From assembly GCA_000196815.1 (NCBI GenBank), contig FP929003.1, positions 2,875,501 to 2,939,500 on the forward strand: a stretch of 64,000 nt of DNA, read 5' to 3'. This document shows, in pieces, positions 6,000 to 28,285 of the stretch (positions are counted from its first letter, which is position 1; each line of letters begins with the position of its first letter). A model generated the notes under the pieces. The model was given only the letters and a program-made list of their open reading frames with translations, had not been told where the DNA came from and made no database searches. The stretch comes from Nitrospira defluvii. Its GTDB lineage: Bacteria; Nitrospirota; Nitrospiria; Nitrospirales; Nitrospiraceae. Position numbers and translations under genes: made by a program.

Positions 6000-8258
6000 A
6001 TGGCCAACATCAGCATCCATGGACGCGTCATCGATGAGCGGGGAGCCGGCATCGCCGGCTTGACCGTTCGCGCGCTCGACTTCGATCCGGTTTTTAGCGA
6101 AGACGATGTGCTGGGCGTCGGCAAGACGGAAGGCGACGGCACCTTTCTCATTTCCTACTCGCCGGACGCCTACCGCACCTGGAAGGTCGATCGGAATCCC
6201 GACCTCGTCGCCCAGATCTTCGGCCCCATCCACGCGGACCCGGCGCTCTTCGGCACCCGCCTCCTGCACGAAACCAAGGAAGCGAAAGATGTCACCGACT
6301 CGAACCACGAGGTCGGCACCATCACCATCCACCGCAACAACATCGAGGGCTGGCTCGTCACCCATACGACCTTGAACCCCGCAGTCGGAGAGCCCGTCGC
6401 GCTCTACCACCACAACCGCATCACGCACCTGATCGACGGGGCCAAGATGTTCCCCGAGGTGACCAGTGCCGCCGAAGGGGCCACCGAATCCATCAACCTG
6501 ATGACGCTCTTTTTCGACGTCGACAACGGCTTTCTCACCAAATTCAAAAGCAGCTTCGACCCGCTCAATCCTCCCGCCACCGGATGCAAGCAGGCGGCGG
6601 AGACCACACTCGAAGAGGTACTCAAGAACAAGGGCGGAAAGCCGGTGAACGTCCTGGTCACGAACCTGCCGCTGTCTGCGGAGGACACCGTGACCGAGGT
6701 GGCGGAATTTTTCGCACAGACACCGGGCGTGCGCACCAACGCCTATAACAAGGGATTCGCCCTGCTGCATGCCAAGGCCATCGTGGTGGATGGGGACCAC
6801 GCCATCCTCATGGGATCGCCGCTCAAACAGTACTACTTCAGCGATTCACGTCACGCCATCCGCGACGCGCGCCACAAGGGCTCGCTCATGCACGACGTCA
6901 ACACCGATCTCAAGGGCCCGGCGGTGTCACACATCGAGAAGACATTCGCGAGCATCTGGAATGCCACCGGCAAACCCATGCTGATTCCTCCACCGAAAAC
7001 CTTTCCCGACCTGCCCGTCACGCCGGACGGAGACGTGACCTCGGTGCAGGTCCTGCGTACACTGCCGGGCGGTTCGATCAAGCGCGTCAATCCCAGCGAC
7101 GAGGACCTGCCCTACGGTGAAACCGGCATCCTCGAAGCCTACGAGCGCGCCATCGCCAACGCGCAACGCTACATCTATATCGAGAACCAGTACTTCACGT
7201 CGCCCGAGATCGTCGATGCGCTCATCGCGAGGATGAAGGATCTGACCAAGCCGCGCCTGCAGATCATCCTGGTCCTGAACCTGCGGCCCGACCTGCCGGG
7301 GTACCCGGATCGCCAGATCGACAACGTCAACCAGCTCCGCCTCGCCGCGAAAACAGGAGGCCATCACCTGGGCGTCTACACGCTCTGGAGCCGATCGGAG
7401 AAAGCAGGCAGCGGCGGCGCGGGGAATCCGCGGCGCTACGACGTGATGCCGGTGTACGTCCACAGCAAATTGGCCATCATCGACGACGTATGGGCTACCG
7501 TAGGAAGCGCGAACCTCGACGGCACCTCCCTCAACTACCACGAGATCGGCCTGATCGTGGGCGGCGCTCTCCTCGACCGGCTCATCGACAAGGCGAAGCT
7601 CACGAACGATCCCGGCAAGTTTCTCTGGGAGTTGTTTTGGTATCTCTTTTTCTTCGTCTTCAAACAGATACTTTTCGATCTCAAGACGTTGGTCATCCTG
7701 CTCTTCGTCGCCTACAAACTGATTTTCGACTTCAAGGAAACGCTGGAGACCATCAGGGAGACGCTCGGCGACGTGGCGGACATTCCTCAACTCGTCAGGG
7801 ATATGTATACCCGCACGGCCCGGCACGCCGTCCCAAGCCGCTCACGTCAGCCGTCGCGCAGCGTGGAACTCAACCTGGTGATGTACAGCGGCATCGCCGG
7901 CCTGCCGGAAAACGGCGTCGTCCGATCTCTACGCGAAGCGCTCTGGCAAGAACACCTCGGGCTCGCCTCGCTGCCGGACAACCTCAAGACCATGCCGGCG
8001 GAACCTTCCCCCATGACCTGGGTCGCCGAATGGGAACACGCCGCCGCACACCATGTGGATGCGATCAAGAACGAACAGGCGCCGCCGGCCGACCATGCGC
8101 CGCACCTGCTGCCTTGGAAGCCGGAGACCGACCCGAAGGAATATTTGGTCGCCCTCAAGATTCGCACCTCAAGCCTGCGCAGCAAGGCGCAGAAGTTCGA
8201 TTTCGGCACCTGCAAGGTCGACGATAAGAAAAGCCTGCTCCCATGGCCGATCATCTAG
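6000..8258 (+). CDS. Phospholipase D-like protein with two HKD motifs
   Basis: The 752-residue protein opens with a transthyretin/carboxypeptidase-regulatory-like beta domain (residues 1-100, starting with ISIHGRVIDERG). Two phospholipase D catalytic motifs follow. HKD1 has H257, K259 and D264 (HAKAIVVD) and HKD2 has H488, K490 and D495 (HSKLAIID) with the usual downstream GSANLDG. Both are intact, so phosphodiesterase or phosphatidyltransferase activity on lipids or nucleic acid is plausible. A very hydrophobic stretch around residues 545-585, rich in Phe, Leu and Val, probably anchors or inserts into membrane. There is no N-terminal signal peptide. The gene overlaps the next one by 16 bases, implying coupled expression. 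Substrate is unknown. Confidence 0.85.
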   Translation: MANISIHGRVIDERGAGIAGLTVRALDFDPVFSEDDVLGVGKTEGDGTFLISYSPDAYRTWKVDRNPDLVAQIFGPIHADPALFGTRLLHETKEAKDVTDSNHEVGTITIHRNNIEGWLVTHTTLNPAVGEPVALYHHNRITHLIDGAKMFPEVTSAAEGATESINLMTLFFDVDNGFLTKFKSSFDPLNPPATGCKQAAETTLEEVLKNKGGKPVNVLVTNLPLSAEDTVTEVAEFFAQTPGVRTNAYNKGFALLHAKAIVVDGDHAILMGSPLKQYYFSDSRHAIRDARHKGSLMHDVNTDLKGPAVSHIEKTFASIWNATGKPMLIPPPKTFPDLPVTPDGDVTSVQVLRTLPGGSIKRVNPSDEDLPYGETGILEAYERAIANAQRYIYIENQYFTSPEIVDALIARMKDLTKPRLQIILVLNLRPDLPGYPDRQIDNVNQLRLAAKTGGHHLGVYTLWSRSEKAGSGGAGNPRRYDVMPVYVHSKLAIIDDVWATVGSANLDGTSLNYHEIGLIVGGALLDRLIDKAKLTNDPGKFLWELFWYLFFFVFKQILFDLKTLVILLFVAYKLIFDFKETLETIRETLGDVADIPQLVRDMYTRTARHAVPSRSRQPSRSVELNLVMYSGIAGLPENGVVRSLREALWQEHLGLASLPDNLKTMPAEPSPMTWVAEWEHAAAHHVDAIKNEQAPPADHAPHLLPWKPETDPKEYLVALKIRTSSLRSKAQKFDFGTCKVDDKKSLLPWPII

Positions 8259-11200
8259 TCCAGAACGCCACCGCAGGGATCGGGCGGCTCCTGTCGTACC
8301 TCGACGTCGTTCACGGCGATATCGAGGAGGCGCGCGCGTTTCTGAAACTACTGGGATGGGACCTGCCGCCCGGTCTCGACGACATCGGTCTGGCCGCCCT
8401 CGATCTCGGTGATTTCCTCACGAAGCTCGATGCGGTCATCGGCGCCTCCGACGCCGAATGGAACGACGAGGTGACCATGGCGGGCCGCATCGTCGACCTT
8501 GCCTTCGCCATCGAAGCGCTCGTCGCTCGGATTCACGATCTGGCTCACACCCTGCCCGCCAGACTGGCATCTTTCGGCGACTACGTGGACCGGACGCAGA
8601 TCCACAAGGAACTTCCCAGACGGCTGTTCGACTTCCTCGTGGCCAATTACCTGGCGCAGGCTTCGCCGCTCGCTTATGCCGTCCTCCACCTGATGAACAT
8701 CATCGACTATCCCTACTACGCCGCCGATCCGGCGACGTTTCAGGTGGAACACGTGCGCGCCACGGTGCACTATCATCTGTTCAAAGTGCTGGTCACGGAG
8801 CCGAACCGACTGTTCACCGAGGCCTATGGCTGGGATACACCGGACTTCCAGTCCACCCTCTTTCTCAACCGGGTCAGCCAGCTCTTCCAGACGCTCGGGC
8901 TACGTAGTCGCATCCAGCCGTTGAGTCCTCAGGCGGAAGAAGCCTGGGTGGGACGTACCGGAGCGGGTGTCGATCCGCCGTCGCAGTTGATCACCTTTTT
9001 ATATGAAGAGCGCGGCACGGCCTTCGGCGTACGACTTGGACTCTCCCTCTTCGGCGCAGCCCCCACGTCGGCAGGCGCGAACGATGCCGGCCTCGGCCTC
9101 GCGCCTCTGATCCAAGGCCGGGCGGAAGGGGCGGTGCCGTTTCACCGATTGGAAGACACACGCATCGAATGGTCCGGCAACGTGGAGGTGCTCAAGCGGC
9201 TCGCGGTGATTCTGCGACCCAACCGGGACCTCACCCTTCGCAAGGGAGCGGGACTCGGCGATGCCATCAACGGCCGCCTCACGTTGGGACTGCGGCATGG
9301 TCAACCGACCGGCGAGCCGCACCCGCTGGTGCGCCTGCCCGGTGGGTCGGCCCTGAGGTATCAGCAGTTCGCGGTCGCGGGCGGCATCGACGCCGCCTCG
9401 GCGACCAGCCCCGAGACATTCCTGGAGTTGGCGCTTCTGGGTCTTCGGTTCGACTTGTCGCTCGCCGAAGCCGATGGGTTCGTCCAGGGAACGCTGACTC
9501 GCGATCGCGTCGAAGCGCCGTTCGACCTCACACTCCGTTGGAGCAGCAAGACAGGACTCTCGCTCTCCGGCAGCGGCGGGCTCCACGTCTTTCTCACGTT
9601 GCAAAAATCCATCGGCCCATTACGGCTAGACGGCGTACACATCGGGATCGACGTGGGCGAGGAGGGCATCGAAACCGAAACCAGCCTGAACGGGCGCCTG
9701 ACACTCGGGCCGGTCACCGCTACCGTCGAGCGGCTCGGCATGACCGTCAACATCTCGTTCGGCGAAGGGAACCTCGGCCTCTTCGGGCTTTCACCAGGCT
9801 TCAAGCCACCGACAGGCCTGGGGCTGGCGATTGCCGCGCCGGGTGTGGTGGGCGGCGGGTATGTGGGCTTCGATCCCCAGCGGGCCGAATACAGCGGCAT
9901 GCTGCAGTTGGAGCTAGCCGACCGCATCGCGATTAAAGCCATTGGCCTGCTCACCACGCGCCTGCCCGACGGCAGCAAGGGCTACTCGCTGTTGATCCTG
10001 CTCACCGCCGAAGGGTTCACGCCCATTCCACTAGGCCTGGGCTTCACCCTCACCGGCATCGGTGGGCTGCTCGGCCTGCGTCGCACCGTCTCCACGTCCA
10101 CGCTCCGCGAGGGCCTCAAGACCGGCACGCTGAATGCCATTCTGTTCCCGGTGGATCCCCTGCGGAACGCGCCGCAACTGCTGAGCGATCTGCGCCGCGT
10201 GTTTCCCCCCACCGCCGGCCGCCATGTTTTTGGCCCCATGGTCCAATTGCGTTGGGGCACACCCACCCTGCTGACCCTTGAACTCGCCCTCCTGCTCGAA
10301 TTGCCGTCGCCCGTCCGGGTGATCGTCTTAGGCCGCCTCCAAGTCCTCTTGCCCAACCAGACCCACCCGCTCGTGCAGATCCGCATGGACGCCTTGGGGG
10401 TGCTCGATGTGTCGGCCGGCACCGTCTCGTTGGATGCCACGCTCTACGATTCCCGCATTCTGCAATTCACCCTGACCGGCGACATGGCGCTCCGGGCCGG
10501 CTGGGGGAGCCAGCCGCAGTTTATCCTGGCCATCGGCGGGTTCCATCCGCGGTTTGCCGCCCCGCCGGGGTTACCGGCGCTCAAACGCTTGGCCTTGAGT
10601 CTCGCCGACGGCGACACGTTGCAGCTGCGTTGCGCCGCCTATCTGGCCGTCACCTCCAATACGGTGCAGTTCGGCGCCCGGGTCGATCTCCATGCCGCGG
10701 GCGGCGGGTTCAGCTTCGACGGCATGCTGGGGTTCGATGCATTGATTCAGTTGGCGCCCCTGGCGTTTCAAGTGGACATCGGCGCCGCCTTGGCGCTGCG
10801 CTATCGCGGCCGGTTGCTGATGGGCATCTCCTTCAAGGGGAGCCTGGCGGGGCCCACGCCCTGGGAGGTGCAGGGCAAGGCCACGATCAAGATCCTGTTC
10901 TTCAAGGTCTCGGTGTCCTTCGAGCGGCAGTTCGGCACGAAGACCCCGCCGCCCCTGCCGGCGGCGGTGGATGTGGTGGCGCAGGTCGCGGCCGCCCTGG
11001 CCGACCGGCGCAATTGGAGCGGGACCCTGCCGCGGCGGGAGCCGCCGGTGGTGACGGTCCGTGATGGGGGGTCCACGACAGCCGGTCCGCTCCGGGTGCA
11101 TCCGCTGGCGGAGCTGACGGTGCGGGAGCGGATCGCGCCGCTCAACCGGCCGATCACGAAGCTGGGGACGGCGCCGCTGGTGGGCGGGCCGACGACGCTC

Positions 11201-11563
11201 ACGGTGACCGCGACGGGCAGCGGCCCGACGGCCCTCCCTTGGCGGACGACGCCGGTGCAGGAGCCCTTTGCCCTGGCGCAATTCGAAGATCTGCGGGAGG
11301 ACGAGCAGTTGGCGCGGCCTTCGTTCGAGGCGCTGGCGGCGGGGCTGACTTTTGCGCTGGACGAGGTGGCGGCGGAAGAGGACCCCGGACTGACGGCGCC
11401 GATTGCCTACGAGACCCTGCTGATCGATCCGACGCGGCCGCCCGAGCGGCCGAAACCCGGCTATGTGCTCTCGGCGGCGGTGCTGGCCCGGGTCGCGCCC
11501 TTCGGTGCCGCCGGGCAAGCCGCGATTCGCACACGCCGGCGCACTTCGACAGTTGTCGCCTGA
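8243..11563 (+). CDS. DUF6603-like giant protein, copy A
   Basis: The 1106-residue protein starts inside the end of the phospholipase D-like gene. Residues 1 to about 240 are helical and resemble the same region of copy B (LFDFLVANYLAQ against LFELLLTDYLAA; EAYGWDTPDF against KVYGWGSQEL). The rest is a long series of Gly-rich amphipathic beta strands with recurring LGLG and LTLGPV patterns, suggesting an extended beta-helix, beta-solenoid or barrel-like fold. Residues 519-1106 are encoded by DNA nearly identical to copy B. I assign DUF6603 from recall of the family's strand pattern, not a search. There is no signal peptide and no catalytic motif I can see. It may be a structural or carrier component. 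Confidence 0.7.
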   Translation: MADHLVQNATAGIGRLLSYLDVVHGDIEEARAFLKLLGWDLPPGLDDIGLAALDLGDFLTKLDAVIGASDAEWNDEVTMAGRIVDLAFAIEALVARIHDLAHTLPARLASFGDYVDRTQIHKELPRRLFDFLVANYLAQASPLAYAVLHLMNIIDYPYYAADPATFQVEHVRATVHYHLFKVLVTEPNRLFTEAYGWDTPDFQSTLFLNRVSQLFQTLGLRSRIQPLSPQAEEAWVGRTGAGVDPPSQLITFLYEERGTAFGVRLGLSLFGAAPTSAGANDAGLGLAPLIQGRAEGAVPFHRLEDTRIEWSGNVEVLKRLAVILRPNRDLTLRKGAGLGDAINGRLTLGLRHGQPTGEPHPLVRLPGGSALRYQQFAVAGGIDAASATSPETFLELALLGLRFDLSLAEADGFVQGTLTRDRVEAPFDLTLRWSSKTGLSLSGSGGLHVFLTLQKSIGPLRLDGVHIGIDVGEEGIETETSLNGRLTLGPVTATVERLGMTVNISFGEGNLGLFGLSPGFKPPTGLGLAIAAPGVVGGGYVGFDPQRAEYSGMLQLELADRIAIKAIGLLTTRLPDGSKGYSLLILLTAEGFTPIPLGLGFTLTGIGGLLGLRRTVSTSTLREGLKTGTLNAILFPVDPLRNAPQLLSDLRRVFPPTAGRHVFGPMVQLRWGTPTLLTLELALLLELPSPVRVIVLGRLQVLLPNQTHPLVQIRMDALGVLDVSAGTVSLDATLYDSRILQFTLTGDMALRAGWGSQPQFILAIGGFHPRFAAPPGLPALKRLALSLADGDTLQLRCAAYLAVTSNTVQFGARVDLHAAGGGFSFDGMLGFDALIQLAPLAFQVDIGAALALRYRGRLLMGISFKGSLAGPTPWEVQGKATIKILFFKVSVSFERQFGTKTPPPLPAAVDVVAQVAAALADRRNWSGTLPRREPPVVTVRDGGSTTAGPLRVHPLAELTVRERIAPLNRPITKLGTAPLVGGPTTLTVTATGSGPTALPWRTTPVQEPFALAQFEDLREDEQLARPSFEALAAGLTFALDEVAAEEDPGLTAPIAYETLLIDPTRPPERPKPGYVLSAAVLARVAPFGAAGQAAIRTRRRTSTVVA

Positions 11564-11568
11564 GATGA
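9797..11568. repeat. 1772-bp near-identical direct repeat, copy A
   Basis: This segment matches 15907-17678 base for base apart from seven substitutions by my count, about 99.6% identity. It begins inside copy A at codon 519 and extends eight bases past the reading frame through TGAGATGA. Before and after it the two loci show no comparable nucleotide identity. Only three substitutions change the protein (Gly/Ser, Arg/His and Arg/Gly). Confidence 0.95.
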
Positions 11569-11845
11569 CTACGTACCCTCGCAATCCGGCCCCTTCCACC
11601 ACGAGCACCTTCGTACAGCCTTACAGGCCTCGAACGGGCGGCGAAACGTGCGGACATTGATTGCGCTGCACCGCCATAATGCACGTATTTACCGCAGAGA
11701 TGCGTTTGACACTCCTTCACGAGCGGAGTACCTTTCGGTTCGTCCGATCGTAGACTTTCGTCGCCTGTTCGAGACGCTCGAGCGGACAGGATTGCTTCTT
11801 AACTTGTGTTAACCTCGGACGCCACAACGAACAGCTCAAGCCGTC
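11564..11845 (+). other. Gap inside the cluster, open in the upstream frame
   Basis: No confident gene lies here. In the same frame as the upstream DUF6603-like gene the sequence stays open past the TGA (11561-11563) to a TAA at 11810-11812. Its second half reads like protein (for example RAEYLSVRPIVDFRRLFETL). This could be a relic of a gene tail displaced when the repeat copy arrived, or chance openness at high GC. A short TTAAC-ttgt-GTTAA palindrome is at 11799-11812. I see no clear promoter or ribosome binding site for the next gene. Confidence 0.35.
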
Positions 11846-14419
11846 ATGCCGATCACCGGGATCAAATGGAAAACCAATCGGGAGTACGACATCCACCTGT
11901 TGCGTGGAAGAACCTTACCGGCCCTCCTCGATGCCGTCGATGTTCAGCTCCCTGACGGTACCACTCAAGATGCCGCGGCCTACCTGGCTGCCAATGCCGA
12001 CGTCACCATCAACTTCCAACCGTCGTTCAGAAACGTGCTCGACCTCACCGTCGCGCCGCCGACCTGCTCCGGCTTCGGGATCACGATCAACAATAACAAC
12101 GGAGAAACCCGGGTGCCTGCGCCTCCGAGCCCGGCGACAACCATTCATAATTTTCTCCTGCACGCCACGGCCGAAGATTCGAGTGACGACAAGGAATACC
12201 GCATCAGCGTCCGGATTCACCTGCATAACCGCGTGACCTCCGCCTGGTTGACGCCTTCGATCCTGACTCTTCGGCCGGACGGTCCGACCTTGCCGCAAAC
12301 CACCTTCAGGCGTTTCAGTGTGCGCGCGCAATTCGATGACAACACCGTCGGTGACCTCACCAATCAGTCCGGACTGACCTGGGGCCCCCTCGCCAACGTA
12401 GAACCATCAGGTCGATTGATCGTTTCGGTCGGGAATAGCCCGAGTGACCCGGCCGTGGAGATCACGGCCACGCTGCCGGCCGACCTACGGGATCCTGCGA
12501 ACCCCGCGCCACCGGAGATCGTGGCTCGCGGCCATATCCGGTTCGCAGCGGATTGGGCCTCGGAAAGCACCATTCGAACCGAGACCGTACAGATCCAGGA
12601 GACCTGGCCGGGCACGATCAACCCGGAACTCGTCCCTAATTTCCTGTTCCTGTGCGACGGCTACACCACCGACGACAAACCGCAGTTCGAATCCCAAATC
12701 AGATGCCTGCTGGGGCTCATGAAGAAAAGCCGGCTGACGCGCCCTTTCGATTTACTCTCCACATCAATGAATTATTTTCAGGCCTTCGTGCCCTCCAGCC
12801 ATCATGGCATTTCGGTGCTCTGCGAGGTTTTCCCGACACAGCGGAACAATGGGGACGTGCAAACCAATAGCGACGACACCGTGCACCTCTATTGCGTTCC
12901 CGATCCGGAGGATCCTTCCGCAGGGGAACGTTGGGATCTCCGCAACCTGCTATTCCGACTCGGGCTTCCCGTTCCCGGACAAGGGCTCGATCGGCCGATC
13001 AAGGAAATCCGTGATTACTGGGACAGCATCCTCGACGACGTGCCGCATGACAAAATCTCGAATGCGACGGTGCGTGAGTGGCAAATGTTATCCCGACGGA
13101 CATTCCTCGAAGAAGCCGATTCGACGTTCGGATTGGCCTACGGCGACTACCCCAACGTCACGAACGAAAGTAACAATAGCGAAATCGGGTTTCATTCGCG
13201 ACGAATGACGCGCGAGCAGTTGGACCCGATCTTGAACCGCCTGCACGACACCAATGGCAATCCCATAGGCCAGTTGTGGGCTGAACGGTCTGACGGCACA
13301 CAACCCAACAGCTACCCGTTGATTTTTCTCTTCTCTTCGCTCAGATGGGACCGTGGGGTGAACTACCGTCGCAGGTACATCGCCATGAATGTCGAGGGGC
13401 GGGAAACAATCCCGGCGAGACCCGTCTCGGGGAAACCGACGTATCGTATCGACCTCACCGGCCGCATCACCAACAAGATCTCCCATGGGCGCCTGATCCG
13501 CGGGTGTCATGAGGTGGCACATTCGTTCGGCCTGGGCGATGAGTACAGCGAAAAGGGAACCTTGCCTCAGAGCCGCGAGATCGATCAGTTTTACGGGAAT
13601 CTGCAGAAACACAGCGACCTGCTCGACTCGTTCGACGACATCGATGGCGATCTCATCAAATGGCGCTGGCATCGCATCCGCAAAGCCACCGTCGTCATGG
13701 GCGCTATCGGCCAAGCCACACCGGGCGTCTTCCGCATTCCGATTCCCTTGGGGCAGAGCCTGCAATTCAAACAAGGCAACACGGTGCTCCTGCGCGCTCG
13801 ACGCTACCCCAATCCCCTCCCGCGCAATCCGGACATCAGCGAGCACCTCCACATCGTCGGACTCGCAGACCCCGGCGGCGTGTTCGACCTTTCAAAACCG
13901 GAAGGCCCGGACAATCCTCTGGGCGCAGCCATCCTGGTCTCGCCCAAGGACGGGCACTCATTCACCGCAGCCGATGCCGCTCGATTCGGGGCCGGCTGCG
14001 TCCTCTACCTGCCCGTCGAAGCCAGCGAATCGGCCCGCTCGGAAGACTACCCCTTCGCCGAGTTGATCGCCCTGAACGTCAAGGATCACATCACGGACCG
14101 GGGCCGCGCGCTCAACCAGGACCCCGACAGCGACGAGATCTGCGTGCCGGACAAAAACGACGTGCAAAAGCCGAAGAAGCTCGACATCGATTTTCCCCGC
14201 TGCTTCAAACATAAGAACCGGATCGTCGGCCTGTTTACGGGCGGCAAAACGTTCCACTGCGGAATTTATCACCCCACGGGCAACTGCATCATGCGTAACT
14301 CGGACAGTGACGGCAAAGAGTTCTGCCCCGTGTGCCGTTACCTGCTGGTTGATATCATCGATCCCCACCAGCATTTTTCCATCGACTTGGACTACGGCGA
14401 GATTTATCCGCAGAAATGA
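11846..14419 (+). CDS. M64-like zinc metallopeptidase, large
   Basis: The 857-residue protein has an N-terminal half of beta-rich, Ig-like or jelly-roll-like segments (residues 1-260). A domain beginning FLFLCDGYTTDD (about residue 265) follows. The zinc-binding signature HEVAHSFGLGDEY has H555, E556 and H559 with D565 and E566, fitting the HExxHxxGLxDEY pattern of IgA-peptidase-like M64 enzymes. A late Cys-rich motif, CIMRNSDSDGKEFCPVC, also matches that family. There is no signal peptide, unusual for M64 enzymes, which are mostly secreted. The stop overlaps the next start as ATGA, so it is translationally coupled to DUF6603-like copy B. Confidence 0.75.
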   Translation: MPITGIKWKTNREYDIHLLRGRTLPALLDAVDVQLPDGTTQDAAAYLAANADVTINFQPSFRNVLDLTVAPPTCSGFGITINNNNGETRVPAPPSPATTIHNFLLHATAEDSSDDKEYRISVRIHLHNRVTSAWLTPSILTLRPDGPTLPQTTFRRFSVRAQFDDNTVGDLTNQSGLTWGPLANVEPSGRLIVSVGNSPSDPAVEITATLPADLRDPANPAPPEIVARGHIRFAADWASESTIRTETVQIQETWPGTINPELVPNFLFLCDGYTTDDKPQFESQIRCLLGLMKKSRLTRPFDLLSTSMNYFQAFVPSSHHGISVLCEVFPTQRNNGDVQTNSDDTVHLYCVPDPEDPSAGERWDLRNLLFRLGLPVPGQGLDRPIKEIRDYWDSILDDVPHDKISNATVREWQMLSRRTFLEEADSTFGLAYGDYPNVTNESNNSEIGFHSRRMTREQLDPILNRLHDTNGNPIGQLWAERSDGTQPNSYPLIFLFSSLRWDRGVNYRRRYIAMNVEGRETIPARPVSGKPTYRIDLTGRITNKISHGRLIRGCHEVAHSFGLGDEYSEKGTLPQSREIDQFYGNLQKHSDLLDSFDDIDGDLIKWRWHRIRKATVVMGAIGQATPGVFRIPIPLGQSLQFKQGNTVLLRARRYPNPLPRNPDISEHLHIVGLADPGGVFDLSKPEGPDNPLGAAILVSPKDGHSFTAADAARFGAGCVLYLPVEASESARSEDYPFAELIALNVKDHITDRGRALNQDPDSDEICVPDKNDVQKPKKLDIDFPRCFKHKNRIVGLFTGGKTFHCGIYHPTGNCIMRNSDSDGKEFCPVCRYLLVDIIDPHQHFSIDLDYGEIYPQK

Positions 14420-17400
14420 GCAACGCGGCCGGCACATTCGAACAGGTTGCACGCGCCATGATCGACGCGATGGCGCCGTTGCGCCGCGCCCTGAGCAGTC
14501 GCGATGCGTTCCGATCCTTCATGCTCCGCCTCGGCTGGGAAACCATCTCCGTTCCTCCGGCCTACACCGCACTGGGCACAACCATCAGCGAAGCCATGCA
14601 GGCAGTGGAGGCGCTTCGCGACGATCCGACAGCGGACGAGGTTCTGTCCCTGCTCAGGAAAGCGCAAGCCGCCTATCTCGCGATTCAACGGATCGATCAG
14701 GCGCCGGCGGGTGTCGATGCGGCCGCGTTTCTCAGTCAGATCGGCGAGCAGCTGTTCGAACTCCTGCTCACAGACTATCTCGCAGCCCACCAACCGGCTC
14801 TTTTCAATTGGCTCTCGATCCTCAATGTGATCGAGACGGTGGACATCCCTGCCACAGAACATCAGCGCGGCCATATCCGCACGCACTTCCATTGGGCCAT
14901 GATCCCGGCGATCGTTCGCGATCCCTTGTCCCTACCACAGAAGGTGTACGGCTGGGGCTCGCAGGAGTTGAAGTTTTCATTGCTACTCCAGCATCTCAGC
15001 GAACTGTTCTTCGCCTACGGTTTCCCGGTCTACCTCAGCAGAACAGAGACTTCACTGACGCGCGGGTATGACGATGGCGAGCGGAACCTCGAAGAACACT
15101 CCGCGTGGCTCAAGATCCCGTTCTACTACATTACGATCGCCGACCGGGAACTCGAGGCGGCCATCAGTGTGGTGGAACTCAAAGGCAGCGACACCTCCTT
15201 GCCCGGCCTCGCCATCCAACCACACATTCCCAATGAATTCCCGCTTACCCTGCGCCTGGCGCCGACCATCGATCTGCGGGTGCGCGCCGGCACCAATGCC
15301 GCAACACAACTCGGCATCGTGCTCCGCCCCGGCGAAGCGTCGATCAAATACCCCTTCCAACCAGGGACGACGCCTCCCTCGGCCGGCATCGGCATCGGGT
15401 TCGATTTCAAGCCCGCGTCGCCGACCCTGCTGTTCGGGGCACCGAACGCCACGCGTCTTGAGTTCCAAGGGGCGTCGGTCGACCTCGGAGCCTCCACAGT
15501 CGATAACGAACTGGATATTCAGCTGGCGGCTCAACTCAAGGGGCTGACCCTTGTCCTTCAGCCAGGCGAGGCCGACTCCTTTCTGCGCAACCTGCTCGGC
15601 GACAGCGAACGCCGGCTGACGATCCCGCTCGGCATTGAATGGACTCGGCGCAACGGGGTGCGCTTCGCAGGGAGCGAGGCATTCGAAACGTTCCTGCCTA
15701 CGAATCTCTCGATCGGCCCCATCACGGTCGAAGGCATTGCGCTGCAACTCTTTGCGCCCACCGACCATTCCGCGGATCTGACCCTGGCGGTCGGGGCACG
15801 GATCTCCGGAAAACTCGGCCCTGTCTCGTTTGCTGTGGAAGGAATGGGGTTCCACCTGCAAACGACCTTCGCCCAGGGCAATGTCGGTCCGTTCGATCTC
15901 GCCCTCGGCTTCAAGCCACCGACAGGCCTGGGGCTGGCGATTGCCGCGCCGAGTGTGGTGGGCGGCGGGTATGTGGGCTTCGATCCCCAGCGGGCCGAAT
16001 ACAGCGGCATGCTGCAGTTGGAGCTAGCCGACCGCATCGCGATTAAAGCCATTGGCCTGCTCACCACGCGCCTGCCCGACGGCAGCAAGGGCTACTCGCT
16101 GTTGATCCTGCTCACCGCCGAAGGGTTCACGCCCATTCCACTAGGCCTGGGCTTCACCCTCACCGGCATCGGCGGCCTGCTCGGCCTGCATCGCACCGTC
16201 TCCACCTCCACGCTCCGCGAGGGCCTCAAGACCGGCACGCTGAATGCCATTCTGTTCCCGGTGGATCCCCTGCGGAACGCGCCGCAACTGCTGAGCGATC
16301 TGCGCCGCGTGTTTCCCCCCACCGCCGGCCGCCATGTTTTTGGCCCCATGGTCCAATTGCGTTGGGGCACACCCACCCTGCTGACCCTTGAACTCGCCCT
16401 CCTGCTCGAATTGCCGTCGCCCGTCCGGGTGATCGTCTTAGGCCGCCTCCAAGTCCTCTTGCCCAACCAGACCCACCCGCTCGTGCAGATCCGCATGGAC
16501 GCCTTGGGGGTGCTCGATGTGTCGGCCGGCACCGTCTCGTTGGATGCCACGCTCTACGATTCCCGCATTCTGCAATTCACCCTGACCGGCGACATGGCGC
16601 TCCGGGCCGGCTGGGGGAGCCAGCCGCAGTTTATCCTGGCCATCGGCGGGTTCCATCCGCGGTTTGCCGCCCCGCCGGGGTTACCGGCGCTCAAACGCTT
16701 GGCCTTGAGTCTCGCCGACGGCGACACGTTGCAGCTGCGTTGCGCCGCCTATCTGGCCGTCACCTCCAATACGGTGCAGTTCGGCGCCCGGGTCGATCTC
16801 CATGCCGCGGGCGGCGGGTTCAGCTTCGACGGCATGCTGGGGTTCGATGCATTGATTCAGTTGGCGCCCCTGGCGTTTCAAGTGGACATCGGCGCCGCCT
16901 TGGCGCTGCGCTATCGCGGCCGGTTGCTGATGGGCATCTCCTTCAAGGGGAGCCTGGCGGGGCCCACGCCCTGGGAGGTGCAGGGCAAGGCCACGATCAA
17001 GATCCTGTTCTTCAAGGTCTCGGTGTCCTTCGAGCGGCAGTTCGGCACGAAGACCCCGCCGCCCCTGCCGGCGGCGGTGGATGTGGTGGCGCAGGTCGCG
17101 GCCGCCCTGGCCGACCGGCGCAATTGGAGCGGGACCCTGCCGCGGCGGGAGCCGCCGGTGGTGACGGTCCGTGATGGGGGGTCCACGACAGCCGGTCCGC
17201 TCCGGGTGCATCCGCTGGCGGAGCTGACGGTGCGGGAGCGGATCGCGCCGCTCAACCGGCCGATCACGAAGCTGGGGACGGCGCCGCTGGTGGGCGGGCC
17301 GACGACGCTCACGGTGACCGCGACGGGCAGCGGCCCGACGGCCCTCCCTTGGCGGACGACGCCGGTGCAGGAGCCCTTTGCCCTGGCGCAATTCGAAGAT

Positions 17401-17673
17401 CTGCGGGAGGACGAGCAGTTGGCGCGGCCTTCGTTCGAGGCGCTGGCGGCGGGGCTGACTTTTGCGCTGGACGAGGTGGCGGCGGAAGAGGACCCCGGAC
17501 TGACGGCGCCGATTGCCTACGAGACCCTGCTGATCGATCCGACGCGGCCGCCCGAGCGGCCGAAACCCGGCTATGTGCTCTCGGCGGCGGTGCTGGCCCG
17601 GGTCGCGCCCTTCGGTGCCGCCGGGCAAGCCGCGATTCGCACAGGCCGGCGCACCTCGACAGTTGTCGCCTGA
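14416..17673 (+). CDS. DUF6603-like giant protein, copy B
   Basis: The 1085-residue protein is a paralogue of the 1106-residue copy A. The first 240 residues are helical, with clear but low similarity to copy A. Residues 240-497 are beta-rich and diverged. Residues 498-1085 are almost identical to copy A residues 519-1106 because of the shared 1772-bp segment. Start is ATG in ATGA overlapping the peptidase stop. It has no signal peptide, membrane helix or catalytic motif. The pattern of variable front and fixed back suggests that the C-terminal part meets a constant partner, whereas the front half sets specificity. That is inference. Confidence 0.7.
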   Translation: MSNAAGTFEQVARAMIDAMAPLRRALSSRDAFRSFMLRLGWETISVPPAYTALGTTISEAMQAVEALRDDPTADEVLSLLRKAQAAYLAIQRIDQAPAGVDAAAFLSQIGEQLFELLLTDYLAAHQPALFNWLSILNVIETVDIPATEHQRGHIRTHFHWAMIPAIVRDPLSLPQKVYGWGSQELKFSLLLQHLSELFFAYGFPVYLSRTETSLTRGYDDGERNLEEHSAWLKIPFYYITIADRELEAAISVVELKGSDTSLPGLAIQPHIPNEFPLTLRLAPTIDLRVRAGTNAATQLGIVLRPGEASIKYPFQPGTTPPSAGIGIGFDFKPASPTLLFGAPNATRLEFQGASVDLGASTVDNELDIQLAAQLKGLTLVLQPGEADSFLRNLLGDSERRLTIPLGIEWTRRNGVRFAGSEAFETFLPTNLSIGPITVEGIALQLFAPTDHSADLTLAVGARISGKLGPVSFAVEGMGFHLQTTFAQGNVGPFDLALGFKPPTGLGLAIAAPSVVGGGYVGFDPQRAEYSGMLQLELADRIAIKAIGLLTTRLPDGSKGYSLLILLTAEGFTPIPLGLGFTLTGIGGLLGLHRTVSTSTLREGLKTGTLNAILFPVDPLRNAPQLLSDLRRVFPPTAGRHVFGPMVQLRWGTPTLLTLELALLLELPSPVRVIVLGRLQVLLPNQTHPLVQIRMDALGVLDVSAGTVSLDATLYDSRILQFTLTGDMALRAGWGSQPQFILAIGGFHPRFAAPPGLPALKRLALSLADGDTLQLRCAAYLAVTSNTVQFGARVDLHAAGGGFSFDGMLGFDALIQLAPLAFQVDIGAALALRYRGRLLMGISFKGSLAGPTPWEVQGKATIKILFFKVSVSFERQFGTKTPPPLPAAVDVVAQVAAALADRRNWSGTLPRREPPVVTVRDGGSTTAGPLRVHPLAELTVRERIAPLNRPITKLGTAPLVGGPTTLTVTATGSGPTALPWRTTPVQEPFALAQFEDLREDEQLARPSFEALAAGLTFALDEVAAEEDPGLTAPIAYETLLIDPTRPPERPKPGYVLSAAVLARVAPFGAAGQAAIRTGRRTSTVVA

Positions 17674-17678
17674 GATGA
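15907..17678. repeat. 1772-bp near-identical direct repeat, copy B
   Basis: This is the second copy of the segment at 9797-11568, offset by exactly 6110 bases and without any indel. It ends at TGAGATGA, just beyond the stop codon. Because nearly all changes expected from drift are missing even at third codon positions, the two copies were made identical recently, by duplication or gene conversion. Confidence 0.95.
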
Positions 17679-17693
17679 ATGGGATAAAGAACG

Positions 17694-20309
17694 ATGCCTG
17701 AACCAACTACTGCCAGCTACCGATTTTTCTCCTGGCTCCGTCAGGGACTGCTCGCGGGCCTGTCCAATCAGACCGGAGCCAGCCCTCCCCTGACAGGCGG
17801 CCATCTGGTGCTTCCGATCCGGCTGCGAGTCAACAGCGCCGCCCCCGTCGACGTCAACATCCAGCTCTACGGCCCGGGCGACATCACCGGCATCGATGCG
17901 CGCGAGGTCATCCGGACCGAGCCGCAGGCGCATATGACGGATTTCGAGCCGAACTACTTTCCCGCGATCGAGTTCGATCGCCCGGATTTTCCCTGGCTCT
18001 TCACCCCCGCCAAGGCCGATGCCGCCAGACGACTCCGCCCGTGGATCTGCTTGATCGTCGTACGCAAGGAGGGGGCCGCTCTCAGCACCGTTCCACGTCA
18101 GCCCTTGCCGGTCGTCACCTGCGGACGAGAAGAATTACCCGATCTCGACCAGGCCTGGGCCTGGGCCCATGCGCAGATCGTCTCCGGGCAGACTGCCGCT
18201 CCTGATCCGACGCTGCAACAGATTCTCAACGACCATCCGGACCGGACACTGTCGCGGCTACTCGGCGCGCGACGTCTCGATCCCAACACGGCCTATTATG
18301 CGTGTCTCGTGCCGACCTACGAGGTGGGACGCAAGGCCGGGCTGGGCGAACCGATCACCGCCGACGATGAGCAGGCGCTGAAGCCCGCTTGGTCGAAGGG
18401 GCCCGGCGCACCGACCGGCACCATCAGCCTGCCCGTCTATTTCCATTGGGAGTTTCGCACGGGGCTCGCCGGAGACTTTGAATCGCTGGCGCGCCGACTG
18501 GAACCCAAACAGCTCCCGACCACCGTCGGACTGCGCCCGATGGACATCAGTCAGCCGGGATGGGGCATGCCGGCACTCCCACCGAATGCGCCCGGCAACC
18601 TGCTGGACCTCGGCGGCGCACTCCGTACACCGGAAACCAATCCGCGGCCCTGGCCGGAAGCGGCACAGACCTCCTTCCAACAGTCACTCCGCACCATCTT
18701 GAATGAACCGGCCGCGCACACCGCACCGGACAACACGCCCGCGGTCCTCGGTCCTCCGTTATACGGACAGTGGTACACCGACCAGCAAACAATCCCCGCG
18801 GCCAATCAGCCGCCGCACTGGTTGCGGGAATTGAATCTGGACCCGCGTCATCGTGTGGCCGCCGGTGTCGGCACCCAGGTGATCCGATACGAGCAGGAAC
18901 CACTCATGGCCTCCGCCTGGGATCAGCTGGAACAACAGCGGCAGGACCATGCGCGTCTCAAACGGGCACAACTCGCGGAGACGGTCGGTGACTCGTTGTT
19001 CAACAAACATCTCTTGAATCTGCCCGCTACCAGGCTGGTGCAACTGGCCGGACCATCCCGGACTGCACTGACCGCGTCGGGAGCCGCCGGCGCCCCGGTG
19101 CCAGACCCCGCGCGCGTGCTGTTCGCGAATCCCGCCTCCACAGGAGCCTTTCGACGAATCACGCGGCCTCGCGGCCCTCTTGCGGCACGAATGGATCGGC
19201 TCAGCGCCGCGCACCCGACCGCGCCGGCCCTGACCGCCAATCCGCAAAGGCAGCCCGGCACGATGGCGCTGTTCACCGCCGCCACCGGCACAAAACGCGC
19301 GCCGACGGCCAATATCTGGTCGGCGGTGAAAACCGACCTCCTCCTACGCCTCAATCCGAAGCAGGCGGTGCTGGCCGCTGTTCGGCAGACCTTGCCGGCG
19401 GCCGAGAGCACGGATTTGATCCGCTTCTCACCCACGTTCCCGCAGCCGATGTACGAGGCGATGCGAGACTATTTCCCGAACATGCTGCTGCCGGGTATGG
19501 ACCAGGTACCGGCCAACAGCATTGCGCTCCTCAAAACGAATCCGGAGTTGATCGAGGCTTACATGGTCGGCCTGAATCACGAAATGAGTCGCGAGTTGCT
19601 CTGGCGCGGCTTTCCTACCGACCAGCGCGGCACCTACTTCCGGCAATTCTGGGATGCCGCCGGAGAACAGCCCCCGACCACGGAAGCGGAGCGGGAGTTG
19701 CGGCGCGACATCACGCCGATCGCCTCATGGACGGCGGACAGCCGGTTGGGTACGCATGGCGCCCGAGGCTCGGCGGTCGGACAGATGGTGCTCCTGGTCC
19801 GCGGCGATCTGCTCCGCCGGTACCCGCGCGCCATTGTCTACGCACTGGAAAGCGTGTGGTCGGCCGACGGCACGCGCCGCGAGTTGGGGACGACGGAGCG
19901 TTATCCCATCTTCCGCGCGACACAATCACCGGACATCACCATGCTCGGCTTTCCGCTGACCGAAACGGAGGTCCGCGGGGCCGACAACAAGGCCGCCGGA
20001 CATCCGGGGTGGTTCTTCGTCCTGCAGGAACAGCCGACCGAACCGCGTTTCGGCATGGACGTCGCAAAAACCTACGGCGGCACGCCCCAACATTGGAGCG
20101 ATCTGACCTGGGGGCACGTGGCGACGGACGAAGCGGGGCTCAAACAGATCGTGTACGTCCCGATCGACGGACTGCTGAAGAACGCGGTGGTCGATCAAAT
20201 TCCCTGGGGCAAGAATTCCGCGCACATGGCGTCCATCACCAGACAGCCGCCGTTTCGCGTCGCCGTCCATGCGAGAACCTGGCTGCGGGAACCGGGACCG
20301 CGACCGTAA
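17694..20309 (+). CDS. Uncharacterised 871-residue cluster protein
   Basis: I do not recognise the family. The protein has no signal peptide or membrane helix. Early residues (45-130) alternate as in beta sheets (HLVLPIRLRVNS, VDVNIQLYGPGDITGID). The middle is Pro/Ala-rich with QPPHWLRELNLDPRHRV. A late conserved-looking block contains NHEMSRELLWRGFPTDQRGT and FRQFWD, and the C-terminus holds WGHVATDEAGLKQIVYVPIDG. The strong Trp/Tyr/Phe content and lack of active-site signature suggest a structural or binding role. It begins 20 bases after copy B ends, preceded by a weak GGGATAAAG ribosome binding site, and is followed 27 bases later by the coiled-coil gene, so it should be part of the same operon. 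Confidence 0.7.
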   Translation: MPEPTTASYRFFSWLRQGLLAGLSNQTGASPPLTGGHLVLPIRLRVNSAAPVDVNIQLYGPGDITGIDAREVIRTEPQAHMTDFEPNYFPAIEFDRPDFPWLFTPAKADAARRLRPWICLIVVRKEGAALSTVPRQPLPVVTCGREELPDLDQAWAWAHAQIVSGQTAAPDPTLQQILNDHPDRTLSRLLGARRLDPNTAYYACLVPTYEVGRKAGLGEPITADDEQALKPAWSKGPGAPTGTISLPVYFHWEFRTGLAGDFESLARRLEPKQLPTTVGLRPMDISQPGWGMPALPPNAPGNLLDLGGALRTPETNPRPWPEAAQTSFQQSLRTILNEPAAHTAPDNTPAVLGPPLYGQWYTDQQTIPAANQPPHWLRELNLDPRHRVAAGVGTQVIRYEQEPLMASAWDQLEQQRQDHARLKRAQLAETVGDSLFNKHLLNLPATRLVQLAGPSRTALTASGAAGAPVPDPARVLFANPASTGAFRRITRPRGPLAARMDRLSAAHPTAPALTANPQRQPGTMALFTAATGTKRAPTANIWSAVKTDLLLRLNPKQAVLAAVRQTLPAAESTDLIRFSPTFPQPMYEAMRDYFPNMLLPGMDQVPANSIALLKTNPELIEAYMVGLNHEMSRELLWRGFPTDQRGTYFRQFWDAAGEQPPTTEAERELRRDITPIASWTADSRLGTHGARGSAVGQMVLLVRGDLLRRYPRAIVYALESVWSADGTRRELGTTERYPIFRATQSPDITMLGFPLTETEVRGADNKAAGHPGWFFVLQEQPTEPRFGMDVAKTYGGTPQHWSDLTWGHVATDEAGLKQIVYVPIDGLLKNAVVDQIPWGKNSAHMASITRQPPFRVAVHARTWLREPGPRP

Positions 20310-21226: not shown

Positions 21227-24200
21227 GTGAGACCCATCAGTGAAGGACCGGAAATTCCGGAACGTGTCCCGCCCGCGCTGCTACGAGCCTGGGCCAACAC
21301 GCTCCGCCGACTGCAGGCCGAGCACGACCGCGCCGTGGCACGTGCGCAGGCAGCCAACAAACGCGCAAATTCGCTGGCAGCCCAGCAGAGGCTCTACCAG
21401 GCTGAACTCAGCCAATTGCAGCCCCGGATCCTGGCCGCCCAGGCCGCCGTCACCCGTGCCACTTCCAATCTCGCCGCGGTGACCGCCCGGCTCGGGGAAT
21501 ACCGGAGCGCCCGCGATGCGGCGACCGCCCGACTCCTCGGCACCGACCGCCTCGCCGGGACCGTCGCCACGAGCCATCCGTTGCTTTTGTTGCCGGTGCG
21601 ATTGGAAACCAGATTCGCCCCGCGCCGGACCGGAACGGGAACCGACCTCCTGCTGCGCGTCTACCCCGACGACATACATATCGACAGCCATGAACCGGGC
21701 GTGACCACGGAGGAGGAACGCTGGGGCGCCCAATTCTGGCAACAGGTCGCGGCCGTGCCTCCGGGGCCGGAGCAGCTGGAACGAAAACGACAGGCCTGGC
21801 AACAACTCACGGAGCGGTTCGGCGCCACACGCGCCGCCTGGATTGCCAATGCGCTCGATCCGGCGCGCAGTCAGGCCGTCACCCGACGCGACGACACCTG
21901 GACACGCGCGCCCTATACGCAGGTGTTGCCAGACCGCTGGGTCGCCATCGGCTATCGAGGAGACAGAGCGCACGTCACGGCCTGGGGCACACCCATTCCC
22001 GAGACAGTGGCCGTGGGGCCGGCGCCGCGCGGCACGACGCTCATCGAGGACAACGGTCTCCCGCCCATCGACGAAGGCATGCGCTGGCTCACCGACTTCG
22101 ACGCCGCCGAAGCCGTCGGCATGGGCCTCCGGATTCCCCTCAGCGACGAGGATGCGCAGGCCGGATTCGATCGCGTCGTCGTGCTCGGCACAAAAGCTTC
22201 GTGGGACGCGACCACGACGGCAACGCGCCTGGCCCAATTGTTCGATGCCCATCACTACACCGGCGGTCTCGCTTTCATCGGACAGAATGTGCCGACCAAT
22301 AACAGCGCGGAAGCGTCGTCCGGCTATCGCTCGACCGGGAGTCCTGCAGCGGAAACGCTGGAGATCGAGCTGGGAGCGCCACTCGCCCAGCCAGGGTCGG
22401 ACGGCGAGGTCACGGCCAAAGCCCTGGGCCTTCCCACGAGCATCTTTGCGCATGTGCAGGGAGCCGGGGGATCGGAACAACGCCACGCCGCCGCCATGAA
22501 TGCCGCCCTGCTCGCCCTCTGCGACAGCGCCTTGCTGCGGCAGCTCTCGGAAAAGACCGGCGCAGAATTTCTGCGCGCACATTTCGCGCAGTTCATGCGC
22601 GCCGCCGGGCCCCTTCCCGCGCTCCGGATCGATACCCAACCCTATGGCCTGCTCCCGGTCGCGGCACTCGACCGTTGGATGTCGAAGACGACTGCCGATG
22701 CGGAGTCGGCGTTGGCCGTCTGGTGGCAGGCGCAGCGCCGGCTTCTGCGTCACTATACCCGGCGTGCGCTCCATACGCTCACGGAGAACAACCCCGTCGT
22801 AATGTTGGCGCAGGAGGCCACGTCTTGCCGCTACACGATGCGTGAATTTCCTGAAGCCTCCATCACTCCGCCCGTGCCTCGCGCGCTCATTCCCGCTGCG
22901 TTGCGCAATCTGATATTGAACCGCGCACTGGCCGCGCCGCATGACCCGACGCTGGATGCGCTGCTCACGCTGCCTGAACCGACCCGTCAGGCGCTGCTCG
23001 CGGAATCGATTGACCTGGCCACCTTCCGCTTCGATGCCTGGGCCACCTCGCTGGCCACGAGACGACTGGCTGCGCTGCGTCACGCCGATTCCACCGGCGT
23101 CCGTCTGGGCGGGTACGGGTGGGTGGAACAGGTCCGGAGAGCGGCGCCGCTTGAAGCCGTGCCGACCCCACCGCCGGGAGTCTCCACTCCCCTCGCTCGT
23201 TCCGCGACCAACAAAGGCTATGTCCACACGCCCTCGCTGGGTCATGCGGCGGCGGCGGCGGTGCTCCGCAGCGGATACCTCTCGCAGGAACATGCGGCGG
23301 GCGAGAAACCGTTTGCCGTGGACCTCTCCTCCGAACGGGTGCATCGGGCCAAGTGGTTGCTCGACGGCGTCCGCCAGGGACAATCGTTGAGCGCCCTGCT
23401 CGGCTACCGGTTCGAGCGCGGACTCCACGACCGAGGGCTGGATCGATACATCCACCGCTTCCGCGCCCTCACCAGCCTGAAGGAGAACAAGCGCTTCGCA
23501 GACATTCACGAGAAACTCGGTCGCTCCGAACGCACGGCCCGGGAAGTCGCGGCTCTCTATGCGCAACGCGATCAGGCCGCAGGCCGGGCGGCGGATGCCC
23601 GCGCCTTGAAGGCCGAGCGGGAAGGCCGGGCGCAAACCTATCGCCTCGAACTCGACACCATTGCGCTGGTGGCCCAGCAGGCGCAGGCCGCGGATGCGCA
23701 GGTGGCGCAAGCCACGCAGGCGCTGACACAGCAACAGGCTGCCAAACCGCAAGGCAAGGTGATCCAGCCGTCGGTTCGACGCTACGCCGTCCAGCTACTC
23801 GAAGAACGCGACCTGGATCTGTGGGCCGATCGGGCCGACCAATTGATGCAGGCTCAATCGGTGGCGACAGCTCAGGCCGCCGTGGCGCATCAGGCCCTCA
23901 GCGCAAAAGCCGGCGCCCGCGCCATTGCGGAACGGGCCCAGGCGACGCTGCTCAATGCCAACGACCCGGGTTCGATTCCTTCGGCCCAAGCCGCCATCAC
24001 CCGGGAAGAAACCATGGTCGCGGAGTTCGATCGCCAGGCCCTCGCCAAGGAGGGTGGCCAACGCGGCAAGGCCGAAGCCGATCTTGCCGCCGCACGGGCG
24101 GAGCTGGCGGCGCGCCTGTCACAACAATGGAATGAGGCCCTCGAATCCCTGCCGGCCACGAATGTCGTCGATGGATTGGCGTTGCAGCGCCGCTGGAAAG

Positions 24201-26548: not shown

Positions 26549-28285
26549 ATGGCTTCACAGATCAGACTGGAACTCAGCACCACCAACCCCGATCTGCAGG
26601 ACGGGCTGCAGGCGCGCTTGCACGATCCCCTCTGGCTGTTGGCCCGCCAATGGCAATTCGGTGAATTCAACGGCGCGGACGCCGGGTCCCCTGCTGCCGC
26701 GCAGGTTGTGGTGGATACGACAACATTGAGCCGCTATCAGCCCGGCCCGCAATCGGCGGGCCATCCCGCTCGCCCCTACACACCGGAGGCGCTGGCGCTG
26801 GAAACCCTGGTCGAAAGCGAACCAGTCGGCACCGGCATTCGCCCCAACTGGAAACTCGCCGCCGAAGCCGGCAACCATCTGCTTCGTCTGCTGCAACAGA
26901 ACAACGCCGGACAGACCCGCGCGTTATGGCTGAACAGCGCCTATGTGCTTGCGGAGCCTACGCCGGAACAGGAACGGACCCTCGATGCCGCGAGCCTGCA
27001 ATTCATGCAGGTGATGAGCCGCCGCACGATCGACGGGCTTCGACTCGCGGCACACCTCCGCCCGCTCCAGGCCCGTAACGGCCTGACCGAACTGTTTCAG
27101 GAAACGCCGTTCGAACAGATCGCCACCGCCGACCGTCCCAAGGTGATCGCCGCGCTGACGGCCTGGCTGACATGGGCCGATACGTTCTTTCAACAGACTG
27201 CGCCGCCCGCCGCCTGGATGCCGGAACGTATGGAGTACGCCTTTGCCGTCTCGGGAAAAACTGCGTCGGGGGAAGTTGTCCTGGCTGCGCCGGAATATTT
27301 GGAGGGTCGCCTGGACTGGTTTTCGTTCGTGTCGAGTCCCGGACAGACACTGGGGGCCACTGCAAACGGCTCGTCGGTCAGCACGGCCTTCCTTCCCGCG
27401 CCGGTCACGTTTCGCGGCATGCCCTCCGCCCGCTTCTGGGAATTTGAGGACGGCGCCGTGAACTTCGCCCAGGTGGAAGCCGCGCCGCAGGATCTGGCCA
27501 GACTCCTCCTCGTGAAATTCGCGCTGGAATACAGCAACGACTGGTTCGTGCTTCCATTGGAACTGGCCGTGGGCACGCTGTGCCAGATTCGCGCGCTCGT
27601 CGTCACCAACACGTTCGGCGAACGGATGATGATTCCGCACACGAGCCAGGTGGACGGCGCCAACTCGCCCTGGCGCATGTTCAATCTGACCCGCGATACC
27701 CAACAGTTGTACTTCCTTCCTCCTGTGCTGGGCCCCGGTCTGGAGAGCCCTCCGGTGGAAGAGGTGCTGTTCCTGCGGGATGAAATGGCCAATGTAGCCT
27801 GGGGCGTGGAGAAGATCGTAGAGAGCGCAGCGGGTCGGCCGCTAGACCGCTACGAAGCCTACCAGGAGACGCGCCGACGACTGGAAGAAGCCAGCCCGCC
27901 GCAGACCCCCGAGGGAGACCAGACCCAGCCGCTCCCCTATCGCCTCGGTACCACCGTGCCGGACTACTGGATTCCGCTGCTACCCGTGACGGATGGAACG
28001 TCGCTCAAACTCAAGCGGGGTGCTATTCCCGATTTCAACGCCGGGGAAAGGCCGCGGCTGATCGAGCCGATGGGACGGATACTCGAACCAGGGCGCGAGT
28101 TACTACTGCAAGAAGAAGAGGTGCCGCGCGAAGGAGCCAGGGTCACACGTACCTATCAATACGCCAGATGGATCGACGGCTCGACCCATCTGTGGGTAGG
28201 CCGGCGCAAAGAGCCTGGCCGCGGCGAAGGCTCCAGCGGGCTGCAGTTCGACGTGGCGGAGAAGAGGGAAGAGGGGAATTCGTAA
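26549..28285 (+). CDS. Uncharacterised 578-residue cluster protein
   Basis: The protein opens with SQIRLELSTTNPDLQDGLQ followed by HDPLWLLARQWQFGEF, a striking Trp/Phe-rich start that I associate with a widespread but unnamed family. No signal peptide, transmembrane segment or catalytic residue set is visible. The middle contains DWFSFVSSPGQ and RFWEFEDGAVNF, and the last 150 residues are charged with repeated Glu/Arg pairs. It starts three bases after the 1772-residue gene stops, so the two are almost certainly co-translated. It is the last gene of the cluster: 14 bases later a tRNA-like fragment begins. Confidence 0.7.
   Translation: MASQIRLELSTTNPDLQDGLQARLHDPLWLLARQWQFGEFNGADAGSPAAAQVVVDTTTLSRYQPGPQSAGHPARPYTPEALALETLVESEPVGTGIRPNWKLAAEAGNHLLRLLQQNNAGQTRALWLNSAYVLAEPTPEQERTLDAASLQFMQVMSRRTIDGLRLAAHLRPLQARNGLTELFQETPFEQIATADRPKVIAALTAWLTWADTFFQQTAPPAAWMPERMEYAFAVSGKTASGEVVLAAPEYLEGRLDWFSFVSSPGQTLGATANGSSVSTAFLPAPVTFRGMPSARFWEFEDGAVNFAQVEAAPQDLARLLLVKFALEYSNDWFVLPLELAVGTLCQIRALVVTNTFGERMMIPHTSQVDGANSPWRMFNLTRDTQQLYFLPPVLGPGLESPPVEEVLFLRDEMANVAWGVEKIVESAAGRPLDRYEAYQETRRRLEEASPPQTPEGDQTQPLPYRLGTTVPDYWIPLLPVTDGTSLKLKRGAIPDFNAGERPRLIEPMGRILEPGRELLLQEEEVPREGARVTRTYQYARWIDGSTHLWVGRRKEPGRGEGSSGLQFDVAEKREEGNS

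Follow-up and report, generated by a model that had tools for sequence, protein, structure and literature searches.

An M64-related metallopeptidase of Nitrospira without a signal peptide occupies an exchangeable enzyme slot upstream of a DUF6603 gene

Introduction

The closest described relatives of the peptidase studied here are the M64 igalysins. In the structures of IgAse/ThomasA, the catalytic zinc motif is HExxHxxxGxxD, the Met-turn reads CIMR, and the structural zinc is bound by the Glu that follows the Asp together with three Cys (PMC12237041, PMC12402451). The extended motif HExxHxxxGxxD is stated to be retained across the clusters of the M64 family (PMC12402451), and metzincins are defined by the consensus HExxHxxG/NxxH/D plus a Met-turn (PMC12237041).

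DUF6603 is a family without a described function, of which no mention was found in the literature searched; the mosaic of its N- and C-halves and its pairing with enzymes are newly described here. We analyzed a stretch of 64,000 nucleotides of Nitrospira defluvii (the window; positions 2,875,501-2,939,500 of a single 4,317,083-bp contig), for which the original prediction had named an M64-like peptidase without a signal peptide, coupled to a DUF6603-like gene and perhaps carried as cargo of the cluster's own machinery.

Results

The peptidase gene and its cluster

The predicted open reading frame was real and matched Peptidase_M64 in Pfam (PF09471, E 1.2e-10; 41.5 bits, cut-off 26). The nearest named relative, a MAG of Nitrospira defluvii, had an M64 protein of 91% identity. 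One backbone set accompanied two enzyme-DUF6603 modules in the window genome (Table 1). The neighbor predicted to be DUF6603-like was confirmed as a member of that family (PF20248, E 1e-134), the two partner genes scoring 454 and 450 bits with a Pfam cut-off of 27. The phospholipase D (PLD)-like slot enzyme contained a strongly hydrophobic internal segment (residues 552-580), as did some PhoD-like slot proteins. Immediately past the 3' end of the cluster, in the same orientation, lay a Fic/DOC family gene (28575-29729).

Table 1. Coordinates of the cluster genes and sequence features in the window
Feature	Coordinates	Strand	Remarks
PLD-like enzyme, slot-1 enzyme	6000..8258	+	two HKD motifs; PF13091 E 4.9e-14
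DUF6603 copy A, partner of the PLD-like enzyme	8243..11563	+	PF20248 E 7.7e-136
C-half block of DUF6603 copy A, 1772 bp	9797..11568	+	blastn, 99.6% identical to 15907-17678
In-frame TAA stop upstream of the M64 start	11810..11812	+	rules out a longer N-terminus
M64-related metzincin metallopeptidase, slot-2 enzyme	11846..14419	+	857 aa; PF09471 E 1.2e-10
Catalytic zinc motif HEVAHSFGLGDEY, residues 555-567	13508..13546	+	H555, E556, H559, D565, plus E566 of the structural zinc site (putative roles)
KWRW motif, residues 605-608	13658..13669	+	also after the zinc helix in canonical M64
Met-turn CIMR (C814-R817) and FCPVC (C827, C830), putative structural zinc ligands	14285..14335	+	by analogy with ThomasA C606/C616/C619
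ATGA stop/start overlap, M64 and DUF6603 copy B	14416..14419	+	
DUF6603 copy B, M64 partner	14416..17673	+	PF20248 E 1.1e-134; residues 1-~495 M64-type, ~498-1085 common with copy A
C-half block of DUF6603 copy B, homogenized counterpart	15907..17678	+	blastn
Backbone protein P871, conserved, no known domain	17694..20309	+	no Pfam match
Coiled-coil protein, 269 aa	20337..21146	+	weak coiled-coil family matches only; orthologues at the same place
Backbone protein P1772, conserved, no known domain	21227..26545	+	orthologues downstream of P871 in many loci
Backbone protein P578, conserved, no known domain	26549..28285	+	

A missed start that would add a signal peptide to the peptidase was ruled out, because the in-frame TAA upstream is followed by 11 codons free of ATG, GTG, and TTG. 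The N-terminus, MPITGIKWKTNREYDIHLLRG, had no hydrophobic stretch, and its maximum mean KD over 10 residues was 1.48; a signal-peptide gene of the window reached 2.78. The first residues were MPITG in the five closest M64 copies and MPI in all six. The non-hydrophobic, signal-less start described in the original prediction was thus upheld, but it was not peculiar to this enzyme: no signal peptide or hydrophobic N-terminus was found on any protein of the cluster, where the neighboring signal-peptide gene scored clearly, and canonical M64 paralogues had none either. As predicted, the stop codon of the M64 gene overlapped the start of DUF6603 copy B (ATGA). This arrangement was kept in 5 of 6 orthologues, a count that includes two whose DUF6603 frame is broken by a contig end. 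A promoter scan of the gap between DUF6603 copy A and the M64 gene returned one site, no excess over the chance expectation.

Catalytic domain and zinc sites

Judged from sequence, both zinc sites of the peptidase look complete, with H555, H559, and D565 plus E556 at the catalytic site and E566, C814, C827, and C830 at the structural site; these roles were assigned by analogy with IgAse/ThomasA (PMC12237041, PMC12402451). All of these residues were invariant in the six orthologues, down to 35% identity. The third zinc ligand, whose absence would have spoken against the prediction, was present as D565, and the late CIMR...FCPVC motif was located at residues 814-830. The metzincin consensus was found at H555-D565 with M816, and the Met-turn CIMR, the Glu after the Asp, and the three Cys of M64 all had apparent counterparts. 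The zinc loop, however, read HEVAHSFGLGD (HExxHxxGxxD) in all 6 orthologues, one residue shorter than the extended M64 motif. Because this loop has the generic metzincin spacing and not the M64 signature, we named the protein M64-related and not a canonical member. The predicted M64 identity therefore held for the Pfam match, the ligands, and CIMR, but not for the hallmark loop, and the peptidase is a variant of the known family M64.

Similarity to canonical M64 of the same bacterial family was confined to residues 256-321 and 793-842 (E 1.2e-12), the two ends of the catalytic domain. KW[RN]W was present in all 6 orthologues and also in canonical M64 sequences; from this motif to the Met-turn, the window protein had about 155 extra residues. 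The region before residue 256, an N-terminal extension of about 250 residues, had no Pfam match, with a weak Ig-like match at residues ~90-235 (E 0.5). A single-sequence AlphaFold model reached a pLDDT of 33, too low to be read for a metzincin fold or its zinc sites.

Compared with the M64 igalysins (IgAse/ThomasA of Thomasclavelia ramosa and BF3526 of Bacteroides fragilis), the window protein had in common the Pfam M64 match, HExxH with Asp as third ligand, CIMR, and the Glu plus three Cys; it differed in the shorter zinc loop, the missing signal peptide, the N-terminal extension, the ~155-residue insert, and the pairing with DUF6603. Canonical Nitrospiraceae M64 proteins with a lectin-like propeller (L033, L036, L038) likewise had an M64 catalytic domain and no signal peptide, but they carried HExxHxxxGLADE and a C-terminal propeller and had no DUF6603 neighbor. 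At two loci (L033:6633-10417 (-) and L038:9525-13191 (+)), canonical M64 and a subtilase-like neighbor formed a second signal-less protease pair of Nitrospiraceae.

An exchangeable enzyme slot upstream of DUF6603

We surveyed 40 regions, fetched mostly around DUF6603 genes, and read the gene immediately upstream of each DUF6603. Of 147 Nitrospiraceae genomes, 40 had DUF6603. In this family, exchangeable signal-less enzymes fill the position directly ahead of it: the occupants were PLD-like, subtilase (S8), PhoD-like phosphatase, M64, or Amidase_2 enzymes, or a protein without a family. Trypsin-like enzymes were also found as slot occupants. Across 395 Nitrospirota genomes, all 6 long-form M64 genes occupied the slot immediately upstream of DUF6603, which places the predicted coupling of the two above chance. 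PLD, PhoD, or U939 was in the first slot and a protease in the second in 12/12 tandem loci, which are related and hence do not represent 12 independent events. A domain common to all slot enzyme classes, sought as a docking domain, was not found.

U939, a slot-1 protein of 939-970 aa with a hydrophobic segment and no Pfam match (L034:17179-19998 (-) and L080:2626-5538 (-)), represents another slot enzyme class. A peptidoglycan amidase domain was present at L076:5447-7735 (-) and a peptidoglycan-binding domain in a Streptomyces slot protein (L054:6229-10788 (+)); these domains hint at bacterial envelopes as possible targets.

DUF6603 N-halves track the enzyme and C-halves track the genome

DUF6603 copies A and B were 99.6% identical in DNA over the 1772-bp block, whereas their N-halves were about 20% identical in protein. 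The 12 paired genomes all showed the same division between their paralogues, with 16-38% identity in the N-half and 89-100% in the C-half. On the N-half tree, the enzyme label changed 4 times, which is the minimum with 5 labels; 300 shuffles averaged 17.6 changes and never went below 13. On the C-half tree it changed 19 times, against 17.7 when shuffled. The DUF6603 N-half thus tracks the enzyme class and the C-half tracks the genome. Hydrophobicity alternated in DUF6603 residues 160-920 (z 3.7-4.1) but not in P871, P1772, or P578, which suggests that this region may form a large amphipathic beta structure. Contigs of some relatives ended inside DUF6603 genes (e.g. G089:C19 and G095:C13), an assembly outcome to be expected of a near-identical repeat.

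Profiles of the N-half classes were built from close copies and then scored on distant DUF6603 copies. With the full N-half, the profiles named the upstream class correctly in 8 of 10 distant scorable cases, and with the last 150 residues removed they did so in 9 of 10, including one haloarchaeal and one Streptomyces PhoD pair. Class assignment was weaker in very distant copies: three PhoD cases (L045, L048, L069) changed class with the N-half length used, L078 was not scorable, and the DUF6603 copy of an amidase slot scored as PhoD. Two slots without a prior family (L047 and L060) were called S8-type by their N-halves, and their enzymes were trypsin-like proteases, in which a C-terminal domain of ~110 residues was the only part common to subtilases (E 1e-9 to 1e-11). 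The same picture was obtained for a Paraburkholderia plasmid locus (L058), whose S8 label came from that domain. Since trypsin-like proteases with S8-type N-halves share this accessory domain, the partner type follows the accessory domain and not the catalytic fold. A 132-aa open reading frame (L047:15168-15566 (-)) consisted almost solely of the accessory C-terminal domain of slot subtilases and trypsin-like proteases.

The association of N-half and enzyme could stem from gene linkage and not from protein contact: the enzyme and the N-half would travel as neighbors, gene conversion would homogenize the C-half, and no contact between the proteins would be needed. The homogenized block is a clean 1772-bp stretch that ends at the gene end, as from gene conversion, and the N-halves are too diverged for conversion. 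The S8-type N-halves next to trypsin-like proteases that have only the accessory domain in common with subtilases would, however, be unexpected from linkage within one lineage, and so would the extension of the association to other phyla and an archaeon. We therefore regard linkage by itself as an unlikely account.

Backbone genes and hints of location

Of the 40 Nitrospiraceae genomes with DUF6603, 37 encoded P871 and 38 encoded P578. DUF6603 and large, similarly placed genes were also found on plasmids of Streptomyces, Nocardia, Rhizobium, and haloarchaea, where slot or backbone homologues contained peptidoglycan-binding, FG-GAP, and lamin-tail domains, a hint of a location outside the cell. 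Five cluster proteins scanned against PHROGs gave no match, PADLOC returned only a DrmC-like PLD and weak coiled-coil matches in the cluster, and Pfam scans of the cluster revealed no contractile-system family. No recognized secretion apparatus, channel, or ATPase was found in the cluster. Profiles of DUF6603, P871, and P578 gave nothing convincing against solved structures. A prophage origin was not supported, as viral contigs and phage records yielded no relatives in the searches.

These results bear on a second explanation, that the cluster encodes a cytoplasmic hydrolase complex, an organelle-like or turnover assembly in which the M64-related enzyme degrades internal substrates. It would fit a cluster in which no protein has a signal peptide and no channel or known secretion gene occurs, and a cytoplasmic role is possible given that canonical M64 paralogues are signal-less without any DUF6603. 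Against it, the slot enzymes (phospholipase, PhoD, amidase, subtilase) are of types that are usually extracellular, homologues carry peptidoglycan-binding and lamin-tail domains, and a cytosol with unconfined subtilase, M64, and phospholipase would put the producing cell at risk. We consider this explanation about as improbable as linkage. Less probable still is that DUF6603 acts as a specific inhibitor or maturation chaperone (foldase) of its enzyme with an unrelated role for the backbone, since one DUF6603 per enzyme, the class-matched N-half, and translational coupling would also fit, but the conserved, homogenized C-half and the near-perfect co-occurrence with one backbone set point to a common docking role.

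Discussion

The reading that we prefer, with a probability of roughly 0.55, treats the M64-related peptidase as a catalytically complete, exchangeable protease cargo for non-Sec delivery outside the cell: it would bind the N-half of its cognate DUF6603, and the C-half of that partner would link the pair to a shared backbone. The peptidase would be made without a Sec signal and translated together with DUF6603 copy B via the ATGA coupling. It would then dock on the N-half of copy B, predicted to have a helical start followed by amphipathic beta structure, and the homogenized C-half would fix the loaded pair to the backbone of P871, the coiled-coil protein, P1772, and P578. The same backbone would also take the PLD-like enzyme via copy A. 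Such an assembly would most likely deliver or display its hydrolases outside the producer by a non-Sec route, the protease presumably acting on external protein and the PLD on external lipid. The original suggestion that the peptidase is cargo of the cluster's own machinery thus gained indirect support from the exchangeable slot and from the match between the occupant class and the adjacent DUF6603 N-half. The genetic matching is what the data show, and we infer contact, activity, export, and substrates.

More tentatively, bacteria and archaea may have an undescribed system for cargo loading and non-Sec delivery that is defined by DUF6603, with enzyme accessory domains and N-halves acting as a matching code and one delivery body serving several hydrolases (here a protease and a phospholipase). 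Our reading offers the first function hypothesis for DUF6603 and for three large unnamed protein families that co-occur in nitrite-oxidizing Nitrospira. The enzyme-partner matching amounts to a specific prediction, testable by a simple binding assay. Should the assembly prove to export its enzymes, it would constitute a new signal-peptide-free route of protein delivery in an environmentally important nitrifier.

The effector-adaptor logic of type VI secretion and encapsulated toxins is similar, in that exchangeable hydrolases pair with class-specific partners that share a docking part. Among the cluster genes scanned, no phage-tail-like component, VgrG, PAAR, or Rhs was recognized, and the likeness between those systems and the enzyme-DUF6603 modules is one of logic alone.
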